This document shows, piece by piece, positions 3,898 through 27,747 of a DNA stretch of 28,427 nucleotides. The notes under the pieces are model-generated. The model made no database searches and was not told the DNA's origin. It saw only the letters and a program-made list of their open reading frames with translations. The stretch's first letter is position 1. Each line of letters starts with the position of its first letter. The position numbers and the translations under genes are program-made. The DNA lies in IMG/VR virus record IMGVR_UViG_3300021962_000497, positions 1 to 28,427 of that record, one strand, 5' to 3'. The stretch comes from a virus.

Positions 3898-6678
3898 ATG
3901 GCGTTATATGAATACAAAGGTCAGCAATACGATATAGAAACTGACGATCCTGCGTTAGCCAAAAGTAAGATATTAAAATATCTTGAAACTGGTGAGGGTG
4001 AGTCTAAACCTAAATCTGCTCAACAAGCACCTGTAGAAGGTGCTGGCGGTGCCGCATTTGGCGTTTATCGTCCCGCTGGCAGAAGACCTGAAAGTCAAAA
4101 CCAAAATCGTGAAGACAATAAAGATATGGCATTACAAACTGCCAGAGGTGTTGCCAGTAATGTAATGGCACCTTTAGGTATGCCTGTTGATGTAGGTAAT
4201 GTTGTTTATGGACAGGCTGTAAAACCTGTCATCAATTATGTAGCAGATCAGGCGAACGGATTACGCTTGCCACAATACACTGACTTACCACCAGCAGTTC
4301 AAACTGCGGGTAATGTATTAGGTGGTGCTTATAATACCTTTGTTCGTGGTCAAGAATTCCAACCTTTACCTGAAGTGCCAAAAGCAGAAAAACTTCCAGG
4401 CATTGGTGACTATGGTATGAATTTTTACAATGAATTAGTGCCAGGTCCTCAACCTAATAATGCCGCAGGACAATTAGCATTTGCTGGTGGTCAGGCTATG
4501 GGTGTTCCTGTTGCTAACAAAGCATTTCAGGCTGCTATGGCAACTACTAAAGCAATTGCTAAAGCCCCAGGTGTTGTTAAAAATGCTTATACTACTGGTG
4601 TAAATGAAGCCACGGCTAATCCTACATTCAAAGAAACTCCTACCAGTGCTTTTACACCATTGCGTGAAAAAGTCTATCCGAATGAAACAGCACAACCTTG
4701 GATGGCTGGCACACAAGAACAAAAATTAGCAGGATTGGCAGATTTAGAAGCCAGTCAGGTTCCCAGTGATAGTTTATTCAAAACTCCTTTCCAACGCTTG
4801 TTAAAAGCCACAGCACCAAAGACCAGAGAAGTTGATCCTATATCTGGTAAAAAAGTTGATGTGCCACTAATGCCTTTAGAAGGCAGAGTTGGTCAGGCAT
4901 TTGTAGAAGATTTAACAAGAAATCTAATCAACGACCCATACAGAACAATGGCAGGCAATTTCGCAGGACCATTGGCAGGTGCGGCTGCTGGTAGTTTAAT
5001 TCCTGGAGTTGGCACCGTTCTTGGTGGTGCCGCAGGTCTTTTAGCATCTCCGCAATTATGGAGAGGTTTTGATTTATATAAACTAAACAAATTAGCCAAA
5101 GCAGGAAACTTACAACCAGGCTTTGCTCAAGAATTAGCCGCAACTAAAGCAGCCGCTGGTATGCCTGAAACTATGCCTGCTAATCCAGCCGCAGGTGCTA
5201 ACGCACAAATGCGTCCTATTGATCAAATGGTCAATGATGTCACAAGTCGCTTACAGGCAGCCAACTTTGAGCAAATGCCTGACACTAAATCTGTGGCTTA
5301 TGCTGCCAGAACTAATGAGTATATGGAAAAAGCCAAACTCAATGGTGTGCCAATGTCAAGAAAGCAAGCAGAAGAACTTGCTACTCGTGATGTTGATCGT
5401 CATTTTAGATCAACCGCAGATGCTGAAGCCAAACAACGTAATGCTGAACAGGCTGCCAAGAAAGCAGAAGAAGCCAAAGCCAGAGCAGAATACGAAGCAA
5501 GCCCACAAGGTCAATCTGAAATGGCATATAAAGCACAGATTGATAAAGAGATTGCCGCTAACCCAGAACTTAAAAAAGCATTGGGTATAACAAGAAGCGA
5601 CGAAATGTTTGAAACAATGAGTGATGGTTATAAAAAATCATTACAAGATCCTGCTTACTTTGAACAAGTTAAACGAGAAGTTGCTGATGCCAAAGCCAAA
5701 ACCGCAGAAGCAGATAGATTAAAGAAAATACAAGATTCTTTAGTCAAAGATCAATATGTTTGGAGTTCATTAAAAGAAGCGTTAAAAACTCGTCCGTTAG
5801 ATGACAGAGAAATTCATCAATTAAACCAGATTATTAAACATCGTGGTGAAGACCCGTTTGGCACTGGTAAGTTTGAAGACTACTCGTTTGAAGGCAGAGG
5901 CACCGGTAATCCTAATCAATTAGACTTGCCATTAGATCCTGCTGGTAAAACACCTAACACTGACGCTTTAGCAAGAATGGCGGCAGAAGGAAAGTATCGT
6001 GCTCCTAAAACAACTGCTGGCAGTTTATTTGAAACACCTATAAGTGAAACTCCTGTTTCAACTCCTAAACCAACAAGTGCTCAAGGTTTTACATCAGCCG
6101 CAGAATATCGCAAAAGTTTAACTGACCGAGGATTAAATTCCTATGATATTGACCAACTTGTTAAAAAGGCTTTCCCTGAAGGTGAAACTCCTGCTAAACG
6201 CAAGTATGAAAAACAAGCGGATACGGTTAAAAAATTAAATGAAGAACAAACTGCTGGTATGACTGCTGAAGAAATTGCTGCCAAAGAACAAGCAGAGTTA
6301 GACAGAATAAAAAATATGGCTGATCCTTCAGGACGAATACAAAAAACACTTAAAGGTGGTAAGTTGGGTATGATGACTGACGAATCTGCTGGTAAAGTAT
6401 TTGACAGCAAAAAAGATTATGAAGCACAAGTTTTATTAGACAAACTTGCTGGTAAAATAACTACAGGTTCGTTTGTAGATAATGGTATGCGTTATGAAAT
6501 TAGTGCTATCGACTATGGTAATACTCCAAGAAAAGTATTGGAAGATTTGAATAAGCCTTTAACTCAAGTTAGGGTTTTTACTGAGAAAAGTAATAAACAA
6601 ATATCAGGTCCTCCACCAGAAGTTCGTGAAAAATCTCTACGAGAACGAGTAGAAGACAAGATGAAAAAGCGTAAATAA
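3898..6678 (+). CDS. Large internal virion / ejection-like protein with Gly-zipper segment
   Basis: 926 residues. It opens with a short domain, LYEYKGQQYDIETDDPALA, of a kind seen at the N-terminus of large phage internal virion proteins. Around residues 352-385 there is a strongly hydrophobic Ala/Gly segment with G-x3-G spacing (GPLAGAAAGSLIPGVG and following), a possible membrane-inserting element. A charged Lys/Glu/Ala coiled coil follows near residues 505-560, and the C-terminus is strongly basic (RVEDKMKKRK). No transglycosylase or other enzymatic motif is visible. The start is weakly led (GGA eight bases upstream) and probably coupled to the upstream stop. Its last codons, AAA TAA, form part of the promoter-like element at 6672. 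Confidence 0.65.
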   Translation: MALYEYKGQQYDIETDDPALAKSKILKYLETGEGESKPKSAQQAPVEGAGGAAFGVYRPAGRRPESQNQNREDNKDMALQTARGVASNVMAPLGMPVDVGNVVYGQAVKPVINYVADQANGLRLPQYTDLPPAVQTAGNVLGGAYNTFVRGQEFQPLPEVPKAEKLPGIGDYGMNFYNELVPGPQPNNAAGQLAFAGGQAMGVPVANKAFQAAMATTKAIAKAPGVVKNAYTTGVNEATANPTFKETPTSAFTPLREKVYPNETAQPWMAGTQEQKLAGLADLEASQVPSDSLFKTPFQRLLKATAPKTREVDPISGKKVDVPLMPLEGRVGQAFVEDLTRNLINDPYRTMAGNFAGPLAGAAAGSLIPGVGTVLGGAAGLLASPQLWRGFDLYKLNKLAKAGNLQPGFAQELAATKAAAGMPETMPANPAAGANAQMRPIDQMVNDVTSRLQAANFEQMPDTKSVAYAARTNEYMEKAKLNGVPMSRKQAEELATRDVDRHFRSTADAEAKQRNAEQAAKKAEEAKARAEYEASPQGQSEMAYKAQIDKEIAANPELKKALGITRSDEMFETMSDGYKKSLQDPAYFEQVKREVADAKAKTAEADRLKKIQDSLVKDQYVWSSLKEALKTRPLDDREIHQLNQIIKHRGEDPFGTGKFEDYSFEGRGTGNPNQLDLPLDPAGKTPNTDALARMAAEGKYRAPKTTAGSLFETPISETPVSTPKPTSAQGFTSAAEYRKSLTDRGLNSYDIDQLVKKAFPEGETPAKRKYEKQADTVKKLNEEQTAGMTAEEIAAKEQAELDRIKNMADPSGRIQKTLKGGKLGMMTDESAGKVFDSKKDYEAQVLLDKLAGKITTGSFVDNGMRYEISAIDYGNTPRKVLEDLNKPLTQVRVFTEKSNKQISGPPPEVREKSLRERVEDKMKKRK

Positions 6679-17548: not shown

Positions 17549-18724
17549 ATGGCAGAAATTACAACAAGTCAAATTGGCAATGGCACAACACTACCTTATA
17601 GTGCTGACATCGTTGTCAAGGATTTAGACCTCGATGTGTCTAATCGTGTCAAGGACGACACACCAGTATTAAATATGGCTATGTCCAAAAAGCGTAAAGT
17701 AAATTCTACTTTGCCACTATGGACTGATGACATCTATCGTGCTCCACAAGTTCAAGCACAAGTTGAAGGTGCTACGGTATCTACAAGTCAAGCAGAGAGC
17801 AATCAACGCTATAACTTGGGCAACTACACACAGATTTTCAGCACCGTTATTGCGGCTTCTGGAACTGCTCGTGCTGTTCTACAAAGTGGTGGCGATCCTC
17901 AACAATATCAAGAGGTAAAACAACTTATTGAATTGATGTTCGACGTTGAACAACAATTAGTTCGTGCTGACCAAATCGGAACAAAATACGCTGGTCAAAG
18001 CGGAACAGCAAGTGGTTTGCCAAGTGGTCAAACAGGTCGTCGTATGGGTTCATTGAACTCTTTCGCTGGCACAATGTCATTCAACACTACAAGCGGCACA
18101 GCAAGTGGTTTGGATACAAACATCAACAACGAAGATACTGACAGCGTAGTTCAGGCTACTAACGCACTTCGCGTTTATGCTAACGGTAATGTATTCTACA
18201 CAGGCACATTTACTAACCAGTATTTCAGCCCTGCGTTATACAAGCAGTTGGTCACGGTTGCTGAACAGCGTTATAACGCTAAAATCCGCACCGTAGTTGC
18301 TCCAACAAGCCTACGCACATCAATCAGCGATAACATCACGCAAAGCCGTGGTATCAATCGTGTTGATTCTGCCCGTGGCGATACAATCCAAACTTATGAG
18401 GGTGACTTTAATTACACTTATGAGATTATGGATAGTTGGATTATGGACCAAATCAACCCTAACAGCATCTACTTCTTAAATGAGGATGTGCTACAATGGG
18501 GTTCATTGCGTGATCTTGGACCAAATAATGAAGTCTTCTCGAACGCTGATGCGTCATTAGACCAATTTATTATGGAAGGAACTTTGATCGTTCGCAACCC
18601 AGCAGGCGTTGGTGTTCTAAACAACATCACAGCAGGCACAACAGCCCAGAGTTCTTTACCTGGTGCTCGTCCTGCCGCTTTGGTCACTCGCACAAACTTC
18701 GGTCCTGGCGATGTCACACCTTAA
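17549..18724 (+). CDS. Major capsid protein (SU10/DUF5309 type)
   Basis: 391 residues, the size of an HK97-fold capsid protein. Recognisable stretches are LPLWTDDIYRAP, VEGATVSTSQAE, and NYTQIFSTVIAASGTARAV (about 93-111), which is the family's conserved block, followed by IELMFDVEQQLVRAD, LYKQLVTVAEQRYN and IYFLNEDVLQWGSLRDLG. An extended N-arm precedes. AAAGGA leads the ATG. A strong UUCG-loop terminator follows 23 nt after the stop, consistent with high expression. Confidence 0.9.
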   Translation: MAEITTSQIGNGTTLPYSADIVVKDLDLDVSNRVKDDTPVLNMAMSKKRKVNSTLPLWTDDIYRAPQVQAQVEGATVSTSQAESNQRYNLGNYTQIFSTVIAASGTARAVLQSGGDPQQYQEVKQLIELMFDVEQQLVRADQIGTKYAGQSGTASGLPSGQTGRRMGSLNSFAGTMSFNTTSGTASGLDTNINNEDTDSVVQATNALRVYANGNVFYTGTFTNQYFSPALYKQLVTVAEQRYNAKIRTVVAPTSLRTSISDNITQSRGINRVDSARGDTIQTYEGDFNYTYEIMDSWIMDQINPNSIYFLNEDVLQWGSLRDLGPNNEVFSNADASLDQFIMEGTLIVRNPAGVGVLNNITAGTTAQSSLPGARPAALVTRTNFGPGDVTP

Positions 18725-26524: not shown

Positions 26525-26688
26525 CATTACTATCACAACTATATTTGGCTTACAAAAACGAAGACGCTGAACTGGCTTTTGCGTTGCGAGATGAGTATCC
26601 AGAAATATTTGCTGAAGTTGCTGATTTAGTTGTTCGAGCAGATACACAAGAAAAGTTCCAAGAACTTTTAGAAGATTTACATAAATAA
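26512..26688 (+). CDS. Small acidic helical protein (58 aa)
   Basis: A 58-residue gene (MDHITLLSQLYLAYKNEDAE...) behind GAAGGA at six bases, overlapping the previous gene's end by 13 nt. It is predicted fully helical and acidic (AEVADLVVRADTQEKFQELLEDL). Unrecognised. The AAA TAA terminus is contained in the promoter-like element of the RNA gene. Confidence 0.6.
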   Translation: MDHITLLSQLYLAYKNEDAELAFALRDEYPEIFAEVADLVVRADTQEKFQELLEDLHK

Positions 26689-26693
26689 TAGTA
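26682..26693 (+). promoter_or_regulatory. T4-late-like promoter of a non-coding RNA
   Basis: TAAATAATAGTATA has the full nine-base core; by the spacing used elsewhere, transcription would begin at A26693. No ORF follows until 26902. Confidence 0.6.
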
Positions 26694-26827
26694 TAGTAGC
26701 CCGCCAGTATATACTGGTTATCCTCTAATGTTATATCCCTTTCTACAATAGGCTACTATATTAAACTGAATGCTGCCGCATTTGGTTTGGAAACCCTGAG
26801 TATTTGGTCATTCTCAGGGTTTTTTTT
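26693..26827 (+). ncRNA. Structured small RNA of unknown family (~135 nt)
   Basis: From the predicted start A26693 to the terminator tail almost the whole sequence can pair. P1 closes the 5' domain: ATAGTAGCC (26693-26701) with GGCTACTAT (26751-26759), 9 perfect pairs beginning at the first nucleotide. Inside it is P2, CCAGT/ACTGG (26704-26717, loop ATAT), followed by a pyrimidine-rich single-stranded stretch. P3 is AAACTGAATG (26763-26772) with CATTTGGTTT (26779-26788), 10 pairs including two G-U, loop CTGCCG. P4 is the terminator. No credible ORF or Shine-Dalgarno. It is not a tRNA: no T-loop or anticodon arm. The family and function are unrecognised. Confidence 0.6.
26792..26827 (+). terminator. 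Rho-independent terminator of the small RNA
   Basis: AACCCTGAG pairs with CTCAGGGTT (9 bp, 12-nt loop), followed by an uninterrupted T run to 26827. It lies 75 nt before the next coding start and ends the predicted RNA. Confidence 0.85.
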
Positions 26828-26872
26828 GGACAAATATGTGTAGAAATAGTGTATAAAAACAGAATACAGGCA

Positions 26873-26884
26873 TAAATAACTATA
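26873..26884 (+). promoter_or_regulatory. Late-like promoter element (GIY-YIG gene, leadered)
   Basis: CATAAATAACTATA lies downstream of the terminator. Predicted start near 26884 gives an 18-nt leader with AAAGGAG, the strongest Shine-Dalgarno in the window, before ATG 26902. Confidence 0.5.
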
Positions 26885-26901
26885 CATTAAAGGAGATGTA
26901 T

Positions 26902-27747
26902 ATGAAAAGAAATGAAGATGGAACTTACCAACCAGGTTATATCTATGAACTGCGTTGTAAGATAGAAGATGCTTGGCATCCATTCTATGTTGGTGAAACA
27001 ATAAGCATATCACAACGCATTGGACAACACAGAGTTAGTGCCAAATACGCTGATGATACAAGCACATTGGTTTATAGGTTCATACACGATTATTTGGACG
27101 CAAACAACATTGAATGGGACTTGTTTGAAGTAGATCAATATGGTGCTGACGGACCAGAAGCACTTGAAGATGAACACATTATGAGACTATTAGTTGATAA
27201 CGTGGCATTGAAAAATACTAAAAAGGGCAATGATCTTTGGATGACAGAGCGTATGGCTGTAGCCGATGATATGCGTATGCGTAAGATCACAAGTTATAAA
27301 CGCTACAAAGAAGTATTGACCTACGAAGAACATCAACGCAAAGTTGATGAAGCCAATCAACAAAGACTGGAACGCATAGAGTTTGAAATACGAACGCAAA
27401 CTAAACAAGAGCAGATCAGACAACAAATGATTGAACAGGCTAAAGTATTTGCTGAACAAGCAAGGATTAAACTGGAACAAGAAAATCAGGCACGATTGGC
27501 AAGAGCAGAAGCAGAGCGATTGGCTTGGGAAGCAGACGCACCTGCCAGAGAGCAACGACTACGAGCGGAAACAGAACGCTTGGAAAAAGAAGAAGCAGAG
27601 CGACAACGTGTAAAAGATGAACGATTGGCTAAAGTTGATGCGAACATAGCAGAGCACGAAGAGCGTATGAAGTTGGTCAAACAACAAGAAAATAAAATGC
27701 TTGAAAACGCAAGAGCGAGAATGGCAAAGATATTGGAGAAGAAATGA
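26902..27747 (+). CDS. GIY-YIG nuclease-like protein with long coiled coil
   Basis: 281 residues from ATG 26902; an ATG six bases earlier would sit directly on the AAAGGAG site. Residues 11-110 carry GIY-YIG features: GYIYEL (12-17), HPFYVGET (26-33) for the two Tyr motifs, SQRIGQH with R39 and H43, and an acidic helix ALEDEHIMRLL supplying the metal-binding Glu. Residues about 130-281 form a highly charged Glu/Arg/Gln helix, probably coiled coil. GIY-YIG proteins cut DNA in homing, repair or restriction; the coiled coil resembles none of the zinc-finger or helix-turn-helix binding domains of homing enzymes, so the role is open. It overlaps the next gene by ATGA. Confidence 0.75.
   Translation: MKRNEDGTYQPGYIYELRCKIEDAWHPFYVGETISISQRIGQHRVSAKYADDTSTLVYRFIHDYLDANNIEWDLFEVDQYGADGPEALEDEHIMRLLVDNVALKNTKKGNDLWMTERMAVADDMRMRKITSYKRYKEVLTYEEHQRKVDEANQQRLERIEFEIRTQTKQEQIRQQMIEQAKVFAEQARIKLEQENQARLARAEAERLAWEADAPAREQRLRAETERLEKEEAERQRVKDERLAKVDANIAEHEERMKLVKQQENKMLENARARMAKILEKK

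Follow-up and report, generated by a model that had tools for sequence, protein, structure and literature searches.

Antisense small RNAs of bacteria that carry C-rich loops, such as RNAIII of S. aureus, the UCCC-motif sRNAs, LhrC of Listeria and sX13 of Xanthomonas, bind Shine-Dalgarno (SD) sequences. A structured non-coding RNA is also known from phage phi29, the packaging RNA, in the size range of 100-200 nt. The RNA gene described here belongs to the same size range and is likewise a structured, non-coding phage RNA, but no sequence, structural or positional link ties it to the phi29 RNA and the Rfam scan was empty. It resembles the bacterial sRNAs with C-rich, SD-binding loops (PMC2837412, PMC4132741, PMC3771888) in being structured and intrinsically terminated and in displaying a pyrimidine-rich, SD-complementary stretch. 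Unlike them, it is phage-encoded, has a putative T4-late-like promoter and differs in sequence and architecture, and its action is a prediction. It shares with the phage-derived small RNAs of PMC12197685 that it is encoded by a phage genome and possibly acts on phage or host expression. Its design (late box, 5 nt, closing stem, anti-SD stretch and terminator, one per phage genome) has no counterpart among those covered in the accessible part of that source, and the phages concerned here are uncultured.

A structured RNA gene behind the late module

The window, a stretch of 28,427 nucleotides, comes from an uncultured tailed phage, as judged by matches to terminase, portal, major capsid and glycosyltransferase. 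A 38,992-base contig carries the same region with 100% identity across the compared stretches. The coding-free stretch noted in the initial annotation is present as a gap of 213 nt (26689-26901) between a 58-aa ORF, which ends at 26688, and a GIY-YIG-like ORF that starts at about 26902 (26902-27747; weak Pfam match). The features assigned to this gap are as follows.

26680-26687, + strand: CATAAATA, a late-type promoter box without -35 element (TAAATA at 26682-26687) that overlaps the 58-aa gene's stop codon
26693-26827, + strand: RNA gene, about 135 nt from the predicted +1 to the end of the U-tract, fold z about -5, homologues in G004, G008, G050 and G051
26693-26701 (extends to 26691), + strand: 5' arm of the closing stem P1, from the fold; first pair A-U here, G-C in four close homologues
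26751-26759 (extends to 26761), + strand: 3' arm of P1, from the fold
26703-26718, + strand: internal hairpin P2, with its own sequence in each relative and paired in 5/5
26718-26730, + strand: junction element UUAUCCUCUAAUG, the second stretch with complementarity to the SD; its UAUCC recurs in many relatives
26729-26747, + strand: P3, a weak hairpin of 3 bp (UGU/ACA) that encloses the anti-SD stretch; short helix with moderate support
26733-26745, + strand: exposed stretch AUAUCCCUUUCUA, putative anti-SD, identical in 5/5 homologues
26762-26789, + strand: hairpin without U-tract, counterpart of the relatives' terminator hairpin
26790-26827, + strand: intrinsic terminator, 11-bp stem (hairpin 26790-26823), 12-nt loop, U8 at 26820-26827
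26855-26878, + strand: the next gene's own putative boxed promoter (AAAAACAGAAT ... TAAATA), +1 predicted at 26884, leader foldable with the SD in the loop

The stretch 26690-26833 folds at -47.4 kcal/mol, compared with a mean of -29.4 for 200 dinucleotide shuffles (z -5.2; 0/200 as good as the native sequence). This bears out the heavily structured RNA of the initial annotation, and its 9-bp closing stem, internal hairpin and strong intrinsic terminator are all in the computed fold. P1 comprises 9 bp from 26693, or 11 bp with its flanks (26691-26701 with 26751-26761). The 10-bp hairpin that had also been described is present, but its role had to be corrected. The four close homologues end in a single terminator hairpin, and in the window the counterpart of this hairpin has no U-tract and is followed by a second terminator. 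The simple terminator scan takes only loops of up to 8 nt, and the loop of the hairpin at 26790-26823 has 12 nt.

Short ORFs inside the RNA stretch (e.g. MLYPFLQ, MYIPF) were considered as coding and rejected, since the relatives do not share them, and no consistent ORF lies on the opposite strand. The tRNA search, also run on the relatives, found no tRNA gene in the window; two of the related phage contigs have one each, at L348 5233-5303 and L353 8547-8617. Rfam gave no match in the window, further hits being weak and below the gathering thresholds, nor for the RNAs of the relatives, in line with the earlier view of a dedicated structured RNA that is neither tRNA, tmRNA nor a known Rfam family. 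In the five homologues, a discrete RNA with its own late box, stem spacing and terminator was found at the level of sequence. A dedicated, non-coding, intrinsically terminated structured RNA is thus predicted, and its existence and architecture are well supported. We call it a new family outside Rfam, of a known functional kind, namely a putative SD-covering sRNA.

The promoter box and its spacing

What had been taken for a full promoter-like element was correctly placed but is of another type. The sigma-70 promoter scan listed none on the + strand at the start of the RNA, and the element is a late-type TAAATA box. Five nucleotides separate it from the predicted +1 (26693, as placed by the box spacing), which is the first base of P1. 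This TAAATA-N5-P1 spacing is kept in all five homologues, so that the agreement between promoter spacing and stem start holds in the close relatives; it is also strongly over-represented across the wider phage group (see below). Late promoters of T4 lack a -35 element and carry an 8-bp TATA box roughly one turn upstream of the start site (PMC2988020). The present box is similar in layout, being TATA-like, about one turn upstream of the predicted start and without a -35 element; it differs in consisting of TAAATA with a 5-nt spacer, in podovirus-like contigs of about 40 kb, where no counterpart of gp55, gp33 or gp45 was noticed. The RNA is probably made late in infection.

At late genes, the same 5-nt spacing would place +1 on the A of ATG. 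TAAATA-N5-ATG occurs 8, 8, 6 and 7 times in four near-complete contigs, against about 0.6 expected, and is absent from the other strand; the counts shift slightly with the method (overlapping matches). By analogy with the layout of T4 late promoters, and from the spacing, we infer that many late mRNAs would start at the A of AUG and be leaderless. In the window, TAAATA-type boxes lie about 5 nt before a late-gene ATG at 6672, 7631, 8005, 15990 and 18779, where the spacing of the RNA would give leaderless mRNAs. A second promoter class, ATAAC(T/A)GAAT-N7-TAAATA, precedes early SD-led genes and is followed by a leader of 20-35 nt that carries the SD. The RNA promoter is the bare form, TAAATA without the upstream box. 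Sites of the second class were seen at 26855-26901 of the window and at 18191, 19475, 20767 and 21485 of the oriented contig G001.

Close homologues with compensatory changes

In a DNA search of related contigs, G004 and G008 matched in the corresponding position, and a P1-plus-loop pattern yielded two further homologues, L222 (G050) and L223 (G051). All close homologues lie downstream of a 58-aa gene (40-48% identical to that of the window) and upstream of an early gene that varies. This gene is swapped among the relatives, being GIY-YIG-like in the window and G004 and, in G008, G050 and G051, coding for an acidic protein of 47-49 aa.

P1 reads GUAGUAGC/GCUACUAC in G004, G008, G050 and G051 and AUAGUAGCC/GGCUACUAU in the window, the first pair being G-C in the four homologues versus A-U in the window, a compensatory change. 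As MAFFT misaligned P2, P2 and P3 were compared through a separate fold of each sequence. The P2 of the window, CCAGU/ACUGG, is represented in the four homologues by AACAAG/CUUGUU, AACUCA/UGAGUU, AACUUAC/GUAAGUU and ACUUCG/UGAAGU, and P3 has the equivalents GUAU/AUAC or UGUA/UACA. The fold z of the five homologues ranges from -4.9 to -6.5. The initial annotation had named a lack of compensatory changes in relatives as speaking against the RNA; such changes are present in the closing stem and in the internal hairpin. The predicted fold is kept through compensatory changes of P1 and P2 around an invariant exposed stretch.

A wider set of predicted RNAs with this design

Stems starting at TAAATA-N5 were then sought in more distant contigs (terminase 82-85% identical). 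RNAs were found whose plan is the same but whose sequences differ, among them those of G015 (GUAGUGAGAC...UUCCUUUAACCCGUCUCACUAC) and G042 (GUAGAGGAUG...UUUCCUUUAUGCGUCCUCUAC). The spacing was assessed in 48 related contigs (1.16 Mb), with stems of at least 9 bp including 4 G-C pairs. Eighteen stems start 3-5 nt after TAAATA, compared with about 0.45 per position at 6-39 nt (Poisson P about 1e-14, the contigs being related and the counts therefore not independent). About 20 RNAs of one design, with diverged stems, emerged from this, and most carry UUCCUUUA or UCCCUUUC.

The 24 stems at 0-5 nt after TAAATA were also compared with 2981 other stems for features outside the selection criteria. CCUUU lies inside 15/24 versus 5% of the others, UCCUUUA or UCCCUUUC inside 14/24 versus 0.3%, and UAUCC inside 13/24 versus 4%; GCCA is present in 16/24 versus 24%, and a terminator follows within 80 nt in 12 of the 24 versus 6%. 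Four of the 24 look like chance occurrences (G016 7660, G017 5900, G023 7198 and G047 18738). P1 is 97.8% paired over 15 distinct members, with double changes at all nine pairs; since the distant members were picked for having P1, this is weak proof alone, and the spacing and motif tests bear the weight.

In a covariance-model search, the kind of check proposed in the initial annotation, a first model (R1, with only 8 P1 pairs) recovered the five close members and missed the diverged RNAs. The wider set therefore rests on architecture, spacing and motif enrichment, and not on a covariance-model score, and its members are probably homologous to the window RNA. Distant relatives at L348 2482, L353 (minus strand), L225 1517 and L227 5396 share UAUUUGCCAAAGU and have an extra hairpin with a GCAAU loop after P1; they possibly form a separate subfamily.

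Other searches added little. By DNA similarity, sequenced phages gave no match to the window stretch and a single chance match (E 0.7) to the RNAs of two relatives; genome contigs gave no match. The P1 14-mer was present in 110 stretches of viral contigs, apparently by chance except for the near-identical contig. Of 81 matches to the loop pattern plus TAAATA, a matching stem was found in only the five known members. Searches with neighbouring genes for more loci returned few relatives, or loci in which the gene had been replaced.

A putative anti-SD stretch and its candidate targets

The SD-complementary stretch is invariant in 5/5 homologues and predicted to be accessible. The mean unpaired probability of UCCCUUUCU is 0.95 in the predicted ensemble of the window RNA, and the SD-complementary stretch is unpaired at 0.67-0.98 in the ensembles of seven RNAs. 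In the window clade, its long matches (9-10 nt) are SDs of early genes. Early leaders contain a perfect 9-10-nt complement, UAGAAAGGGA or AGAAAGGGA, in G001, G008 and G051, and a 9-nt complement, UUAGAAAGG, in G004, G008 and G050. Several early leaders can be folded from the predicted +1 with the (U)AGAAAGG(G)A SD in a loop, each weakly (-0.4 to -2.4 kcal/mol), and joint folding of the RNA with candidate leaders gains 3 to 12 kcal/mol. AGAAAGG precedes ATG 15 times in 158 kb of the window clade versus 3 times in 374 kb of other groups, and UCCCUUUCU in the RNA is likewise a trait of this clade. The window RNA is also perfectly complementary over 11 nt to CUAUUGUAGAA of an early leader, a match within chance for a 40-kb genome. 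Complementarity to start regions reached P=0.02 with shuffles of the full loop and P=0.14 when the CCUUU core was kept, so that significance was lost and the choice of targets is weakly supported. The leader CUAUUGUAGAACAUAACAAAGAAAGGGACUAC is nearly unchanged before unrelated genes in three genomes. Together with its promoter it forms a module, seen at G001 19475, G008 12361 and at 4090 and 5134 of G051 (oriented contigs), a pattern that would suit a control region moving as a unit.

The early-leader matches, the clade-specific co-occurrence of AGAAAGG and UCCCUUUCU and the joint folding gain favour pairing with phage messages, and the RNA is likely to act as an anti-SD on messages. We give an even chance to the view that it is a phage-encoded, late regulatory antisense small RNA that covers SD sites and might help the early-to-late shift of translation. 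The bare TAAATA box would start the RNA 5 nt downstream, at the closing stem; the RNA would be produced late and end at the intrinsic terminator, with a length of about 135 nt. Its exposed stretch AUAUCCCUUUCUA would then pair with ribosome-binding sites of phage mRNAs and block the entry of ribosomes. The best targets in the window clade would be SD-led early leaders, with which a loop-loop contact is possible. Many late mRNAs, leaderless by promoter spacing, would have no such site, and the RNA might in this way help to shift translation from early to late genes.

In the wider family, UUCCUUUA fits the common AAAGGAA sites, which occur at both early and late genes, and selective early shut-off is therefore not general. 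Late genes within operons also use SDs, and any anti-SD stretch would pair with many genes. A phage-wide translational switch, in which the late RNA covers early SDs, leaderless late messages escape and the anti-SD co-evolves with the ribosome-binding site of each clade, seems to us rather unlikely. The locus would offer a testable case of RNA-based translation control by a phage, within an RNA family of uncultured phages for which a simple search rule exists (late box, 5 nt, stem, anti-SD, terminator), and it hints that early and late genes of one phage use different modes of translation initiation.

We considered the possibility that the same RNA is aimed at the host, its anti-SD covering ribosome-binding sites of host mRNAs and thereby favouring phage messages. 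Within the close clade the loop does not vary, though the phage target leaders differ, and a generic anti-SD would pair with many host genes. Yet the AGAAAGG type of ribosome-binding site co-occurs with the loop type within phages, and SD-led late phage genes in operons would be covered too, which makes a host target unlikely.

Other explanations of the structure

The RNA gene comes directly after the late module, ends in a terminator and has a TAAATA that overlaps the 58-aa gene's stop codon. It could thus be a stable 3' end of the late-operon mRNA together with its terminator, lacking both a promoter of its own and a function in trans. For a 3' end, however, the invariant exposed loop and the fixed distance from TAAATA to the stem would be superfluous, a terminator hairpin being sufficient, and we regard this explanation as improbable.

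Still more doubtful is a scaffold role, in which the pyrimidine stretch of the RNA would be the binding site of a phage protein, for instance in packaging or in the control of RNA polymerase. Its three-hairpin architecture with conserved unpaired elements would suit such a function, as would the GCCA hairpin loop kept in relatives. Against it, there is no link to the terminase gene, which lies about 15 kb away, and the best-conserved unpaired segment has ribosome-binding sites as its complement. For the same reasons a packaging RNA, one of two functions put forward in the initial annotation, is unsupported, and we found no positive evidence for it. The other, a late small RNA with an effect on host or phage expression, is the more likely one, the anti-SD stretch, which that annotation lacked, offering a mechanism. 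Overall, its structural observation is confirmed and its interpretation partly supported.

Lastly, the RNA might act in cis, as leader, riboswitch or attenuator, on the downstream gene, which starts about 75 nt past the terminator and whose own leader is partly complementary to the RNA (UCCUCUAAUGU against ACAUUAAAGGA). This is highly improbable, as the terminator and a separate boxed promoter intervene, no Rfam riboswitch matched, and the replacement of that gene (GIY-YIG or 47-49-aa protein) among the relatives already makes it unlikely.
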